A stretch of 39,508 nt of DNA from Syntrophobacterales bacterium (GTDB taxonomy: Bacteria; Desulfobacterota; Syntrophia; Syntrophales; UBA2192): contig JAGPKU010000011.1 in NCBI GenBank assembly GCA_018053845.1, positions 1 to 39,508 on the forward strand, given 5' to 3'. Below are positions 4,366 to 24,397 of this stretch, in pieces. Made by a program: the position numbers and the translations under genes. Position 1 is the first letter of the stretch. Each line of letters opens with the position of its first letter. The notes under the pieces were generated by a model, which saw nothing but the letters and a program-made list of their open reading frames with translations, was not told the origin of the DNA and searched no databases.

Positions 4366-4383
4366 AGAGCAAGAAGCATACCA
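4366..4383 (-). promoter_or_regulatory. Candidate sigma-54 (-24/-12) promoter P1 for the 4309-1 operon
   Basis: On the minus strand the site reads TGGTATGCTTCTTGCTCT. It has the invariant GG (-24) and GC (-12) separated by exactly ten bases, with TTGCT at -12. Initiation about 12 bases past the GC would fall near 4357 and leave a leader of roughly 48 nt before the GT9 start codon. The same 18 bases occur at 5984-6001. Assignment rests on the consensus and position only. Confidence 0.65.
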
Positions 4384-4973: not shown

Positions 4974-5897
4974 TCAGGCCGTTTGTTCCGGGACGGCGTA
5001 GACCGTGATTTCCTTGTGCAGCTCCGCGGCTGAGCGCGCGTGCTGGAGGATTTTTTTCAGCGGCCACAGCAGGGTCACGTGGCGGGAAATCAGGCTCCGG
5101 GGGTCGCGGATGCCCGCTTTCCTCATCAGCGCCGCCCCTCCCGTTCCGCCGCCTTTGCGTGTCCGGATCGACCGGAATCCCGCCTGCCGGATAGCCCTGG
5201 CGAGCGTGGTCCCGTCGAAATAGAACAAGTGGAGGGGAACCGCGTCGAAGACATAATCCGGTGCGCTGATCGGTGTGGGAACCGCAATGACGGCGACCCC
5301 GCCCGGCTTGAGAATCCTCCGGATCTCGACGAGAGTCGCCAGGGGGTCGGAAATGTGCTCGAAGACGTGCCAGAGCGTGACCGCGTCGAAATGCCGATCG
5401 GGAAACCCGGCATCGGCCAGCGGCCCCTCGAAGACCTCGATGCCGAAGCGCTGCCGGGCGTAACGCGCCTCGACGGACGACAATTCCACGCCCTGCACGT
5501 CCCACCCACGCCGCTTGCACCGGTCGAGGAAAAACCCCCAGGCGCAGCCGATGTCGAGAATCCTTCCCCTCCGGGCGAACGCCTCGATCCGGTCCAGCTC
5601 CTCGTCGAAGCGGACCCGGTGAACGGGGGCCTCGCGGCTCGGGTCGTCGGCCGGATGAACGGGTGAGTGGTCCCGGTCGTCATAGCAGGCCAGCAGATCG
5701 GCGGGCTCGGGGAACGGGTGCACGAAGATCAGCCCGCAACCGAGGCAGCGGACGTACGTATATCGGCCGTGCGACAGAACAGGCCGGTTTCGCGAATCCC
5801 CGCACAGCATGCAGGAGTGCGTTGCCGCCCTGTCCTCAGCGCGGATGGCCAAGGGATGGCGGATGCTGTCCTCAAATCCACAGCGCAAAATTTTCAT
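4974..5897 (-). CDS. Class I SAM-dependent methyltransferase with N-terminal zinc ribbon
   Basis: The protein has 307 aa from the ATG at 5897, which has GAGG six bases upstream (the open frame continues further but without a ribosome site). A Cys4 ribbon (CMLC near residue 30, CLGC near residue 52) precedes a Rossmann core: RILDIGCAWGFFLDRCKRRGW, VELSS after strand 2, and DAVTLWHVFEHISDPL. LKPGGVAVIAVPTP and the C-terminal YFDGTTLARAIRQAGF agree with the Methyltransf_23 type. It resembles the product of 667-1557 in layout but is not a close copy. It would methylate a sugar in the polymer or its precursor; the substrate is unknown. The gene is first in its block, about 78 nt from the predicted sigma-54 start. 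Confidence 0.9.
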   Translation of the reverse strand: MKILRCGFEDSIRHPLAIRAEDRAATHSCMLCGDSRNRPVLSHGRYTYVRCLGCGLIFVHPFPEPADLLACYDDRDHSPVHPADDPSREAPVHRVRFDEELDRIEAFARRGRILDIGCAWGFFLDRCKRRGWDVQGVELSSVEARYARQRFGIEVFEGPLADAGFPDRHFDAVTLWHVFEHISDPLATLVEIRRILKPGGVAVIAVPTPISAPDYVFDAVPLHLFYFDGTTLARAIRQAGFRSIRTRKGGGTGGAALMRKAGIRDPRSLISRHVTLLWPLKKILQHARSAAELHKEITVYAVPEQTA

Positions 5898-5983
5898 TTC
5901 ATCCTCTTTGGAGACAAAAAGACAAGGGATTCGTTGGACCTTTGATCCACCCGGGAGAAACATCGCATGAACTGCGGCTCTTC

Positions 5984-6001
5984 AGAGCAAGAAGCATACC
6001 A
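5984..6001 (-). promoter_or_regulatory. Candidate sigma-54 promoter P2 for the 5897-4436 pair
   Basis: This is an exact copy of the 18 bases at 4366-4383 (TGGTATGCTTCTTGCTCT on the minus strand), with GG-N10-GC spacing. It lies in the 137-nt gap between the broken SGNH gene (ending 6035) and the methyltransferase start (5897). The predicted initiation point near 5975 gives a leader of about 78 nt. Sequences outside the 18 bases differ between the two copies, so the conservation is limited to the promoter core. Confidence 0.65.
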
Positions 6002-12824: not shown

Positions 12825-12841
12825 ATGCAATTAATATACCA
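12825..12841 (-). promoter_or_regulatory. Candidate sigma-54 promoter P3 for the 12749-6035 block
   Basis: The minus strand reads TGGTATATTAATTGCAT: GG and GC ten bases apart and a perfect TTGCAT at -12. It lies in an A+T-rich patch inside the 127-nt gap between the end of the GT9 gene (12877) and the GT2 start (12749). The predicted start near 12815 gives a leader of about 65 nt. Confidence 0.65.
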
Positions 12842-19198: not shown

Positions 19199-20241
19199 GG
19201 CCCGGCGACCCTCCTGCCGGCGATGGCCCGCGACGCGCCGCCCGCAACGTCAAAAAGCGTCTCGAGGCGTTTCCTGTACGTGTGACGGCGCAGGACCTCC
19301 TCCCGGGCCCGCCTCGCGATCTCCGCCCGTTCCGATTCGTGCTCGAGGTAATAGAGGGTCTTCTCTTTCAGCTCGCAGGCATCGTGCGCCACGGCAAGGT
19401 GGACGCCGTCTTCGAAGAGATCGAGCACGTCGCGCTGGGCATCGCAAATGACGAAGGCCCCGCAGGCCATGGCCTCGAATACCCGGGGGCTTGCTTGATG
19501 ACAGGGAATTTCTCCCAGAGGATCCTGGAAGTGGACCGACAGGACAATCTTTGCTGCGGCATAGATCCGCCGCCACGTTTCGGGTGTCGTGTGCGCGGCC
19601 CTCACGCATCCCCGGAGAGGGGAGTCGCTGCGGAGGCGATCCCAACCGGGGCCCCAGATGGCCAGGTCGAGACCTGCAAGCGCCTCGAAGAGCGACTCCC
19701 GTACGGGGTACCAGGACCCGACGAATACGATGTCGTGGCCAAGCAGGCGCCGCTCCTCGTCGGATGGTTCCCCCGGACGGTGAAGCCGGGGGTCGCAGGC
19801 CATGGGAAGCCATCGCGTGCCCTCCATTCCGGCGTTCGAGAGAATCTCGACGGCTTCCGTCCCCTGGCAGAAGACATGGTCATAGAACGGGGCCGCCCGG
19901 AGGACGGGCGCGAAATTCCACGGCGCGTCGATCGTCCACAGAACGGCGCAGGCTCCGACGGCTTTCGCTTGACGCACCGTTTCGGGATCGACGAGCTCCC
20001 CGCCCAGGACGATCAGCACATCCGGCCGGAGCCTCCCGGCGCACGCCCGCAGGCGGCGGTTGAGCCGGGCGCGGTCCGCGCGTTCCATCCACCGGCTGCG
20101 GCTTCGGAGGCGGCCCGGGATCAACCGCGTGCCGTCGTCGAAGGCGTGAAGCCCGTGCCCGAGGGCGCGGATGGCCCTTTCGATGTATTCCGTCACCGTC
20201 CAGTAGTGCGGGTTGTGGTATCCGCTAAGCAGGATTTTCAT
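19195..20241 (-). CDS. CgeB-like glycosyltransferase (copy B)
   Basis: The 348-aa protein starts MKILLSGYHNPHYWTVTEYI. It shares with copy A (17118-18143) YDHVFCQGTEAVEIL, WLPMACDP, IVFVGSWYPVRESLFEAL, LAIWGPGWDRL and HQASPRVFEAMACGAFVI. The start at 20241 overlaps the flippase-fusion stop as ATGA; longer in-frame extension upstream is non-homologous and unlikely. The strong resemblance along the full length indicates duplication within the cluster, followed by divergence in the N-terminal third, where acceptor specificity usually lies. It would transfer a sugar in the cytoplasm; donor and acceptor unknown. Confidence 0.88.
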   Translation of the reverse strand: MKILLSGYHNPHYWTVTEYIERAIRALGHGLHAFDDGTRLIPGRLRSRSRWMERADRARLNRRLRACAGRLRPDVLIVLGGELVDPETVRQAKAVGACAVLWTIDAPWNFAPVLRAAPFYDHVFCQGTEAVEILSNAGMEGTRWLPMACDPRLHRPGEPSDEERRLLGHDIVFVGSWYPVRESLFEALAGLDLAIWGPGWDRLRSDSPLRGCVRAAHTTPETWRRIYAAAKIVLSVHFQDPLGEIPCHQASPRVFEAMACGAFVICDAQRDVLDLFEDGVHLAVAHDACELKEKTLYYLEHESERAEIARRAREEVLRRHTYRKRLETLFDVAGGASRAIAGRRVAGP

Positions 20242-22829
20242 CGCTTTGGGTAGCGGGGCGTGTCTCCCCGGGCGCCGGTCACACCGGCTCGGCCTGCCGA
20301 AGCGGCCGCAACGAACAAAATCAAGGACTTCAGAAGCAAATAGTACGTGTTGGCTGAGAGGGGGTAGCTTCGGACGGCCTGCAGGAATTCGGGTAGAGCC
20401 TCTTCCTTCCTGTCGTTTTCCAGAAAGTAGATACCCCGCATGTAGTGCACGTCGTGGGTGAAGCGCCCCAGGACGCCGGCGATCTGCGGGTGTCGCCCCG
20501 CGAGGCCTCTCAGGTGACCGATCAGCGCCAGCCGGGCTTCCTGGAATGGCCCGCTCTGCGAGTAGTTGCGGTCGTGCCGGACCCACTGCTGAACCACGCC
20601 GGGCTCATAGCGGAGGCGGGCGCCGGACACGAAGAGACGTGCGAAGAACTCGGCGTCATCGAGCCCCGTCAGCAAAGGGTCCTCCGAAAAGCCGCCGACC
20701 CGCCGGAAGACGTCCCTGCGGATCATGATCGTCTGCATCGTCACCAGTGCAAGGTCCGTGGCCATAGCCCGGAGGCACTCTTCGCCGGAGGCCTGCCGGC
20801 TTACGAACCGGTCGATGAAGCGCCCGTCGTCGAAGACGCGCTCGTAGTCGGAGTAGACGGCATCGGCCTCGCTGTGCGACCGCAACGCCCGGATTTGCCG
20901 CTGCAGCCGGCCCGGCATCATGATGTCGTCCTGGTCGATGAAGCACAGCAAGTCTGCTCTTGCCCGCCCGGCGCCGAAATTGAGGGCGGCGCCCTTCCCC
21001 GCGTGGGGGATCCGGAAGCGCCGAACCCGGGGATCCGACAGCGGCCCGTCGACCGTTCCGTCCGGGATGGCGGACCCGTCCTCGACGATGATCAGCTCGA
21101 GAGGCACGCCTGCCTGGCCCAGCACGCTGGCCGCGGAGCGGCCGATCCATCGTTCTCCCTCGTAATAGGGAAGGATCACCGAAACCTGTACGCCCGAAGT
21201 CATGTCCAACTCCCCTTCACACAGGGATGGGAAATGCAAAAACCTCTCCAGATCGGCCGGGTTCCGGCGCACCGTCCAGCGCCAGGGATCGTCCGAACCG
21301 AGCGCGGCCGCCCGTTCTTCCGCCCCTCCGGCAGGAGAGGCCCCCGCGTTTTTCCCGGATGTTCGCAGGCCGGCCAGCAGCGCAGCGACGAGGCCTCTGT
21401 AGCTCCCCGAGGTGAGCAGGGCGTCGGCCGCCGACACGCAGGCGGCATAGAGCCCGATGCCCGCGGCCACGAGGAGCAGAAACCCCGGCAGGGTCACGGG
21501 GCCCGTCATCCCTTTCAGCAGTGTGATCCCGACGGCCATGGCCGCCGAGGCGCCCGCCGGAACGGCCAGCAGCGCCAGGATCCTGGAAACCGTCGCTCCT
21601 GCGATCCCGACGGCGGCAGCGAGCGCTGAGGCGGCGGCCGCAAGCGCCGTCAGCGTGACGGCGAGCGCGGCGCCCGTGATGCCCCAATGCAGGGTGAGCG
21701 GGTAGAGGGTCACGCCGAGCAGGGCCAGCTGCAGGGACGAGAATCCCATCAGCAGGCCGGGACGGCCTACGGCCATCAGCAGGGCGGACGTCGTGCCCTC
21801 GAGGGCCTTCGCGACCCCCATGATGCTCAGCACCTGCATGATCGGGGCGATGGCCTGCCAGCGCTCGCCCAGGACAACGCGGATGAAATCCGGGGCGACG
21901 GCGAGGATGCCGATCCCGATGGGCATGCAGACCAGGGCCGACACCTGGAAGACCTTTTCGAATGACTCCCGCAGGCGCCCCGGCTGGTCCTGCATCATCG
22001 AATAGGAGGGAAACGCGACCATGGAGAAGGCAATGGCCACCTCCGACGAGGGGATCACCGCGGTCAGGAAGGCCATCTGGTAATAGCCCAGGGATTCCGC
22101 CCCCAGCATCCGGCCGAGCAGGATGCTGTCGCACTGCGAGACGGCATAGCAGAGAACGGCATAGCCGGACACCCACTTGCCGAAGTTCAGCAGCTCCAGG
22201 AAGGCGGCCGGGTCGAACCGGAAGGAGGGCCGGAACGGGTGCAGGGCATAGGACAGCAGGACACGCAGGACATTCCCCGCGAGACCGCCCCACACGAGCG
22301 CCCAGACGTCCCGCAGCGCGAACGCGAGCAGCACCGTCAGCGCGAATTCCGCGACGGAGGCCCATGTCTCGAACCGGAACTGCCTGCCGAACTCCAGGTC
22401 CCTCTGGAAATAGACGATGCCGATGTTCGCGGCTCCCCCGATCAGGACCGACAGGGAAACGACCCGGATGATGTCGGTGAGCCGCGGCGCCGCGAAGAAC
22501 CCCGCCACGAAGGGCGCGGCCGCAACGAGGACGAGGCACAGGACGAGGCTGCGTGCGAGTGTCACGGTCCAGGCCGTGTCGAGGCACTCCCGGATGTCGG
22601 TTTTCTTCTGGATGAGCGCCTGCTGCAGGCCCGTCTGGGTGACGCTCTCCAGGCCGGTCACGAAAAGCATCGCCATGGCGATGAGCCCGAAATCGGCCGG
22701 GAACAGGAGCCGGGCGAGCACGACGGTGCGCACAAACCCGAGCGCCCGGCTGGAGAGGCGCAGTCCCAGCGTCCAGAGGCCGCCGAAGAGCACCTGCCTG
22801 AAAATGGATTCTGACGGTTTCCCTGTCAT
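20238..22829 (-). CDS. Wzx-type flippase fused to a family 2 glycosyltransferase
   Basis: The 863-aa protein has two parts. Residues about 1-500 are a MOP/PST flippase with 12-14 membrane segments: FGGLWTLGLRLSSRALGF, LARLLFPADFGLIAMAML, ESVTQTGLQQALIQKK, LNFGKWVSGY and AVAPDFIRVVLGERW, as in polysaccharide repeat-unit exporters. After a polar linker, residues about 543-863 form a GT2 domain: VSVILPYYEGERWIGRS, LIIVEDGSAI and the DxD motif LLCFIDQDDIMMPGRL, with GLDDAEFFARLF later. The C-terminal end has a TPR-like helix pair. No stop separates the halves. An internal ATG at 21203 with its own ribosome site could also give the transferase alone. The start at 22829 is chosen because the longer frame adds unconserved residues and overlaps the upstream gene. 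Confidence 0.88.
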   Translation of the reverse strand: MTGKPSESIFRQVLFGGLWTLGLRLSSRALGFVRTVVLARLLFPADFGLIAMAMLFVTGLESVTQTGLQQALIQKKTDIRECLDTAWTVTLARSLVLCLVLVAAAPFVAGFFAAPRLTDIIRVVSLSVLIGGAANIGIVYFQRDLEFGRQFRFETWASVAEFALTVLLAFALRDVWALVWGGLAGNVLRVLLSYALHPFRPSFRFDPAAFLELLNFGKWVSGYAVLCYAVSQCDSILLGRMLGAESLGYYQMAFLTAVIPSSEVAIAFSMVAFPSYSMMQDQPGRLRESFEKVFQVSALVCMPIGIGILAVAPDFIRVVLGERWQAIAPIMQVLSIMGVAKALEGTTSALLMAVGRPGLLMGFSSLQLALLGVTLYPLTLHWGITGAALAVTLTALAAAASALAAAVGIAGATVSRILALLAVPAGASAAMAVGITLLKGMTGPVTLPGFLLLVAAGIGLYAACVSAADALLTSGSYRGLVAALLAGLRTSGKNAGASPAGGAEERAAALGSDDPWRWTVRRNPADLERFLHFPSLCEGELDMTSGVQVSVILPYYEGERWIGRSAASVLGQAGVPLELIIVEDGSAIPDGTVDGPLSDPRVRRFRIPHAGKGAALNFGAGRARADLLCFIDQDDIMMPGRLQRQIRALRSHSEADAVYSDYERVFDDGRFIDRFVSRQASGEECLRAMATDLALVTMQTIMIRRDVFRRVGGFSEDPLLTGLDDAEFFARLFVSGARLRYEPGVVQQWVRHDRNYSQSGPFQEARLALIGHLRGLAGRHPQIAGVLGRFTHDVHYMRGIYFLENDRKEEALPEFLQAVRSYPLSANTYYLLLKSLILFVAAASAGRAGVTGARGDTPRYPKR
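21203..21215 (-). promoter_or_regulatory. Internal ribosome-binding site and start codon for the GT2 half
   Basis: Within the fusion gene the minus strand has GGGGAG (21215-21210), a six-base spacer and ATG at 21203-21201, exactly at the beginning of the GT2 domain (MTSGVQVSVILPYY). A free GT2 protein of 321 residues could be made here alongside the fusion. The placement at the domain boundary suggests two formerly separate genes. Confidence 0.5.
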
Positions 22830-22887: not shown

Positions 22888-24294
22888 TCAGCGGCCGCGG
22901 CCGGCCGCCTCCGCAATCGCCGCGTTTTCGAGTTTCGGGATCATGACGATCAGGGCCGTCAGGAACCAGAAGGGCTCCATGATCCGCACGATGATGAAGG
23001 TGTTGGCGCCGACGCTGTGGACGAGAAGCCCCACGAGACCGCCGGCATAGCCGACGGCGATCGCCTCGTAGAGGGGATCCCGGCCGACGCGGCGCGCGCG
23101 CAGGGCATGCCGGAAGAGAATCCCGATCAGGACGAGGAAGGCCGAGAGACCCGCAAGACCCGTTTCGATGAGAACCCTCGGGATCTGGGCATCGACGAAG
23201 GAGTGGCCCGTCACGCCCCAGCCGATGAACGGGTGGTGGAGGAAGTCCTGCGTGAGGATCACCTTCCAGGAGATCAGTCTGGCCGACGTGGACGAGTCGA
23301 CCTTGACGGCCCCGATCTTGAGCTGCTCGTCGTTGTCCGGCTGGTTGAAGGTGTAGCCGGCCCGGTCGATGACGCTCTTGGGCAGCAGAAAAGGCGAGAA
23401 GGCCAGCGCGATGACCAGGGGGACCACGATGCGCATCCGGTTGCGGCTCAGCGCGATGAGCGTCAGCAGCGCCGGCGGCAGGGCAACCCAGGATCCGCGG
23501 GAGAGCGTGGCCGCCAGCGAGACGAGCATCAGGCCGAGGAGCACGATCAGCAGCGGCTTTTTCCCGATCGACTTCGGCGTCGCGAGGAGACTGACCACCA
23601 GGCACAGCATGAGCACGAGGTAGCCCCCGAGCGTGTTGGGCTCCCCCTCCTCGCCCTCGAAGGGGGCCGAGACGCGCTCCACGTAGGGGATCTGGGAGAT
23701 GGCGAAGACGCAGACGCAGAAGCACACCACGAGCATGGCGACCAGGAAGCGCCGGATCTGCTCCTTCTCCCGGAGGTGGTTGACGGCCATGAAATAGATC
23801 AGGAAGTACTCGAAGTACTTCAGGATGAAGAAAAACCCGACCAGGGGGTTGAGACGCTTCATCAGGTAGTACCCGTGAACCGTGGCCACGACGCAGATGA
23901 CGAAGTAGACGGCGATGGGCACATTGAGGGGCGTTCTCAGGAATAAGCCGAGCTCCTTGTTGACGGCGACCCGCATGAACCAGCTCAGGCCGATCAGGGC
24001 GATCAGGATGTCGTCGGCCCGCAGGGCGACGCCGCGGCCCCGCGCCGCCGCGATCTCGTCTCCACCCCCGACGGTCAGCTGGGGCCCGAGGAGCATGGAG
24101 AAGATGAGCATGTACAGGGCGACCTCGGTGCTGACGAAGCTGAAGGTGAAGATGATGATGGCAAGCACGGACGCCACGGCGATGCCCAGCGAGAGCTTGT
24201 TGGCCAGCATGGCCCCGCACAGGGCGATGGCGATTACAGCCAGCAGGAACACGGCTGCCCGCGTACTTCCCTCGATCTGCTGGGTCGCGATCAT
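22888..24294 (-). CDS. O-antigen polymerase/ligase family protein (Wzy/WaaL type)
   Basis: The 468-aa protein has about 12 membrane segments. It carries the Wzy_C core SLAATLSRGSWVALPPALL and a large loop with ARLISWKVILTQDFLHHPFI and GWGVTGHSFVDAQIPRVLI (then ETG), which is the usual signature of O-antigen ligase-like proteins. In a Wzx/Wzy pathway it polymerises lipid-linked repeats in the periplasm. A ligase role in joining the glycan to a carrier is the alternative. The position directly upstream of the flippase gene fits polymerase. GGAG lies four to five bases before the ATG. It heads the second block, about 77 nt from a candidate sigma-54 start. Confidence 0.88.
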   Translation of the reverse strand: MIATQQIEGSTRAAVFLLAVIAIALCGAMLANKLSLGIAVASVLAIIIFTFSFVSTEVALYMLIFSMLLGPQLTVGGGDEIAAARGRGVALRADDILIALIGLSWFMRVAVNKELGLFLRTPLNVPIAVYFVICVVATVHGYYLMKRLNPLVGFFFILKYFEYFLIYFMAVNHLREKEQIRRFLVAMLVVCFCVCVFAISQIPYVERVSAPFEGEEGEPNTLGGYLVLMLCLVVSLLATPKSIGKKPLLIVLLGLMLVSLAATLSRGSWVALPPALLTLIALSRNRMRIVVPLVIALAFSPFLLPKSVIDRAGYTFNQPDNDEQLKIGAVKVDSSTSARLISWKVILTQDFLHHPFIGWGVTGHSFVDAQIPRVLIETGLAGLSAFLVLIGILFRHALRARRVGRDPLYEAIAVGYAGGLVGLLVHSVGANTFIIVRIMEPFWFLTALIVMIPKLENAAIAEAAGRGR

Positions 24295-24380: not shown

Positions 24381-24397
24381 ATGCAAGAACCAAACCA
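24381..24397 (-). promoter_or_regulatory. Candidate sigma-54 promoter P4 for the 24294-12877 block
   Basis: The minus strand reads TGGTTTGGTTCTTGCAT, with GG and GC exactly ten bases apart and perfect TTGCAT at -12. It lies in the 211-nt gap between the small membrane-protein gene (ends 24506) and the polymerase gene (starts 24294). The rest of that gap shows only the leader hairpin. Confidence 0.65.

Follow-up and report, generated by a model that had tools for sequence, protein, structure and literature searches.

Results

An open frame spanning a flippase and a glycosyltransferase

The locus lies on the minus strand of the window, by which we mean the whole stretch of DNA analysed. The window makes up the initial 39.5 kb of a contig 48.8 kb long in a draft genome of 162 contigs. 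Its minus-strand neighbours make up an exopolysaccharide cluster with an export protein, a Wzc-like chain-length/kinase protein, wzy, wzx, a family 2 glycosyltransferase (GT2) and further glycosyltransferases (Table 1). The wzx and GT2 sequences share a single open frame of 863 codons (20238-22829), which runs from the ATG at 22829 to the stop at 20238-20240 and whose sequence is unique within C157, its own contig. In the 863-residue translation, Pfam places Polysacc_synt_3 (PF13440) at residues 37-328 (E 1.6e-79, 267.6 bits against a cut-off of 23) and Glycos_transf_2 (PF00535) at residues 550-711 (E 4.3e-19, 69.5 bits against a cut-off of 23.3); the flippase half also matches PF01943 and the GT2 half PF10111. 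The acidic metal-binding motif of the GT2 (DQDD) is present in the translation, as LLCFIDQDD. The preliminary description of this DNA had reported one uninterrupted frame over both genes, two complete domains with the GT2 motif intact and, seen directly in the sequence, GGGGAG six bases ahead of the in-frame ATG at 21203, and these observations hold.

The first half of the frame is like the MOP-superfamily Wzx flippases (PF13440, PRK10459 type) in its PF13440 match and in retaining the native length of 517 codons, and unlike them in that codon 518, as assembled here, is not a stop. The second half is like the GT2 enzymes of exopolysaccharide clusters (PF00535) in having a complete domain, a DQDD motif and a start signal of its own, and unlike them in that the reading frame of the preceding gene runs into it. 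A structure prediction, which drew on seven sequences and was poor for the flippase part, gave about 14 long helices there at low confidence (pLDDT 27-48 over residues 1-540) and had very low confidence in the 24-codon "linker" stretch; a hydropathy scan of the flippase gave no resolved membrane-helix count. The helix pattern of this model suggests 14 membrane helices, a topology that would leave the C-terminus, and hence the GT2, on the cytosolic side, which is where GT2 enzymes act, so that a fusion protein need not be harmful.

Table 1. Features of the wzx-GT2 region and of the surrounding cluster, in window coordinates.
Feature	Position	Strand	Basis
wzx, MOP-family flippase, 517 codons	21279..22829	-	PF13440/PF01943; length same as in three complete same-genus orthologues
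Trp518 TGG, lost stop codon	21276..21278	-	orthologues have TAG, TAA or TGA
Former intergenic stretch, 24 codons	21204..21275	-	alignments; "linker" in this genome only
Sigma-54-type -24/-12 element TGGAGAGGTTTTTGCA (GG-N10-GC), predicted GT2 promoter	21235..21250	-	5/5 genomes
GGGGAG, Shine-Dalgarno-like, 6 bases 5' of ATG 21203	21210..21215	-	direct sequence
GT2 glycosyltransferase gene, 321 aa	20238..21203	-	PF00535; separate-gene orthologues
wzy, O-antigen polymerase/ligase-like, directly upstream of wzx	22888..24294	-	PF04932
Sigma-54-type element TGGTTTGGTTCTTGCA ahead of wzy (24294)	24382..24397	-	conserved in 5 genomes
Further sigma-54-type sites ahead of cluster genes	4369-4383, 5987-6001, 12827-12841	-	pattern match

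The wzx stop codon and gene arrangement in the genus

A wzx gene with its 3' end is available from three of the six other genomes of the genus, G004 (L003/L057), PtaB.Bin038 (G001, L032) and JAAYEC (G006, L033); that of G002 ends at residue 284 with its contig and is outside the 3'-end comparison. The three complete orthologues are each exactly 517 amino acids long and are 64-75% identical. Codon 518 is TGG in the window (21278-21276), whereas it is TAG, TAA and TGA in G004, PtaB.Bin038 and JAAYEC, respectively. The alignment with G004, the nearest relative, is free of gaps through the stop (TGG/TAG) and up to the promoter element described below, beyond which the window has 4 more bases than G004 in the GT2 leader, and this extra length puts the GT2 in frame with the flippase.

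GT2 is present in four congeners, where its orthologues are separate genes (85%, 72% and 59% identity), and a complete wzx 3' end in three. The GT2 of G004 starts 71 bp past codon 517 and in a different frame from the flippase; that of PtaB.Bin038 lies 204 bp past codon 517 and shares the frame of the flippase, from which three in-frame stops (TAA, TGA and TAG) separate it. In JAAYEC, wzx and GT2 are 1.3 kb apart with an opposite-strand methyltransferase between them, and in G005 the GT2 has no adjoining flippase. The intervening methyltransferase-like gene of JAAYEC (L033:6575-7600) has a relative, 30% identical, encoded at 4974-5963 of the window. The JAAYEC GT2 (L033:7777-7825) reads ATC at the position of the ATG of the window, G004 and PtaB.Bin038 and lacks an in-frame ATG in the vicinity; translation may begin at the ATC, or at a GTG that nearly coincides with the start of the transcript, or the sequence may be in error.

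From the normal end of the flippase at codon 518 to the GT2 methionine at codon 543 there are only 25 codons, a stretch that is open in 40% of composition shuffles. Its freedom from stops is less remarkable than it appears, and the single notable event is the TGG at codon 518. Once the stop is gone, with 40% of the shuffles open and a one-in-three chance of being in the frame of the GT2, no special cause has to be invoked for the fusion, and on the sequence comparison the fused frame looks like a local accident and not an evolved fusion.

A predicted sigma-54 promoter at the junction

The DNA ahead of the GT2 is shared by all five genomes, in any frame, as TGGWKARSTTYTTGCA, which ends 31 bp 5' of the ATG. 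The pattern TGG-N8-TTGCA stands upstream of all five GT2 genes, as TGGAGAGGTTTTTGCA in the window, TGGAGAGGTTCTTGCA in G004, TGGTTAGGTTTTTGCA in PtaB.Bin038, TGGTGAGGTTTTTGCA in JAAYEC and TGGTGAACTTCTTGCA in G005, so that each of the five has the GG-N10-GC spacing of a sigma-54-type site, with TGG and TTGCA, near a gene start. It is kept in JAAYEC, with the methyltransferase in between, and in G005, where no flippase lies beside the GT2. Since the element is kept whatever the frame or the upstream gene, its conservation is not that of a linker peptide; nor is the stretch conserved as protein, the relatives having stops within it. Sigma-54 promoters carry -24(GG)/-12(GC) elements (PMC1569441), for which the Desulfovibrio consensus is tGGcacg and tTGCt (PMC4641369); the -24 half of the GT2 element, TGGAGAG, departs from TGGCACG. 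No sigma-70 promoter or intrinsic terminator was found at the wzx-GT2 junction, and the junction DNA was not found outside the genus among the 155 genomes of the order searched.

From these sequence features we predict that the junction is a sigma-54-type promoter plus the leader of the GT2. The start signal at the junction, which had been proposed to give a free GT2, is upheld, GGGGAG-N6-ATG 21203 lying behind the predicted GT2 promoter, and what had been described as an internal ribosome site is most simply explained as the place where translation of a separate GT2 transcript begins. L033 and L059 also have TACAAGAATCRTTCC in common, some 50-100 bp upstream of the -24 element of the GT2 promoter, a candidate activator-binding site.

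The same pattern recurs within the cluster, at four more sites 38-103 bp ahead of the gene starts 4309, 5963, 12749 and 24294 of the window. With gene starts taken from an uncurated list of open reading frames, 5 of the 17 minus-strand starts have a sigma-54-type site no more than 120 bp away, which makes 5 in 2040 bp of upstream sequence against 0.11 expected. Genome-wide, TGG-N8-TTGCA occurs 42 times against 49 for a reversed control, i.e. it is not enriched, so it is the position and the conservation of the sites that speak for promoters. One rpoN (PF04552, E 6.2e-65) and about 20 matches to NtrC-type activators are present in the genome; for PrsR of the PEP-CTERM system there are only matches below the curated cut-off.

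Sigma-54 control of exopolysaccharide genes has been described in Desulfovibrio (PMC4641369) and across bacteria (PMC3162934). The cluster is like the known sigma-54-controlled surface polysaccharide genes, those of the Desulfovibrio vulgaris regulome (PMC4641369) and the PEP-CTERM promoters (PMC1569441), in having -24(GG)/-12(GC) elements ahead of its genes and, in its genome, rpoN together with many NtrC-type activators; it is unlike them in that PrsR has no match above the curated cut-off in this genome. We predict a sigma-54 regulon that spans this Syntrophales exopolysaccharide cluster.

Search for other fusions

The search for other flippase-GT2 architectures proposed in the preliminary description returned none, neither in 60 relatives nor among about 70 flippase matches in 395 genomes of the phylum, by sequence similarity to this flippase, a search that fusions on distant flippases would escape. 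The fused architecture is thus seen in one genome only and not in a second lineage. Several long reported frames were considered as fusions and rejected, G060 and G134 being tandem genes with a TGA between them and G154, G215, G328 and G112 plain flippases. Outside the phylum, L038, L042 and L047 match both halves and were likewise rejected, because their genes are separate and the GT2 comes before the flippase. In two genomes from a different family (L091 and L092), wzx and GT2 abut as TGA-ATG in one frame, with the stop kept in both, one substitution away from a fusion. No described case of a flippase-glycosyltransferase fusion was found among the open-licence papers listed by the literature searches.

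Discussion

The sequence comparisons are best read as pointing to an ordinary exopolysaccharide cluster under sigma-54 control in which a stop codon was lost in this lineage or a single base was wrongly assembled. The explanation that we favour, with a probability of about 0.74, is that wzx and GT2 are separate genes and separate transcription units of an ordinary Syntrophales exopolysaccharide cluster, that the wzx stop was lost to TGG in the window and that the longer leader joined the two frames. Transcription of wzy and wzx would start from the sigma-54 promoter at 24397, and that of the GT2 and the genes beyond it from a second sigma-54 promoter at 21250, with GGGGAG-N6-ATG as the ribosome site. 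With the usual spacing, sigma-54 RNA polymerase would initiate about 12 bases past the GC, giving a transcript start near 21224, and the transcript from the GT2's own promoter would yield free GT2. Without the wzx stop, ribosomes at the end of wzx could continue through the 24 codons of promoter and leader into the GT2, and the wzy-wzx transcript would then also give rise to a certain amount of the 863-residue fusion, its GT2 domain lying in the cytosol. Such a fusion may be made and is probably tolerated rather than selected; nothing here indicates selection for it.

The whole fusion depends on one codon, TGG as against TAG, TAA and TGA, in a draft sequence of 162 contigs, and if that one base is an assembly error, then the organism has a stop at codon 518, the fusion does not exist and the GT2 is a separate gene with its own promoter. 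There is a precedent, in that the only apparent gene fusion in a survey of stop-loss extensions in yeast and fly was the product of an assembly error (PMC4494051). The neighbouring genes, however, align to their relatives in single uninterrupted frames with no sign of poor sequence. Consensus errors at any given base are also rare in short-read assemblies, and we regard an error as unlikely, though deserving some weight. The junction element might instead be another DNA or RNA element, such as a leader motif of the GT2 mRNA, with the genes still separate. Its -24 half is off consensus and the bare pattern has no genome-wide enrichment, but the GG-N10-GC spacing is exact, elements of this type also precede four further genes in the cluster and the genome has rpoN, which together make this alternative improbable.

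The preliminary description had suggested that the frame would make a coupling device, and an adaptive fusion would tether the flippase to the enzyme that completes the repeat unit and so couple synthesis to export, with extra free GT2 from the internal start. The frame is open, its domains are intact, the helix pattern of the low-confidence model (14 membrane helices) suggests a cytosolic C-terminus, and a synthase and a flippase do occur in one protein elsewhere, in MprF (PMC11980842). MprF is like the window frame in combining a synthesis part and a flipping part, and unlike it in that the domains are unrelated and MprF is a conserved bifunctional protein, whereas the fusion here is confined to one genome. 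Against a coupling device also stand the "linker", which is a promoter-like element conserved as DNA in other frames, and the two genomes of another family whose wzx and GT2 abut in one frame and both retain TGA. Separate genes in close relatives, which the preliminary description itself had named as an outcome that would speak against it, are largely what the congeners have, and we consider an adaptive origin very improbable. We give hardly any weight to the version in which the stop was truly lost, the loss has become fixed in the lineage and the 863-residue protein would be a membrane-tethered transferase-flippase, with an in-frame sigma-54 promoter giving extra free GT2 on demand.

The arrangement that we favour, separate genes with a lost wzx stop, has a parallel in stop-loss C-terminal extensions (PMC4494051), which it resembles in that noncoding sequence is added to a gene by the loss of a stop and from which it differs in that the extension crosses a predicted promoter into the entire next gene. 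What looks like a domain fusion in a draft genome can depend on a single codon, and the comparison of different frames exposes a "linker" as a predicted promoter. If the stop loss is real, this would be a gene fusion caught at birth, with separate and joined products both possible. The more useful by-product is the predicted sigma-54 regulon over a Syntrophales exopolysaccharide cluster.
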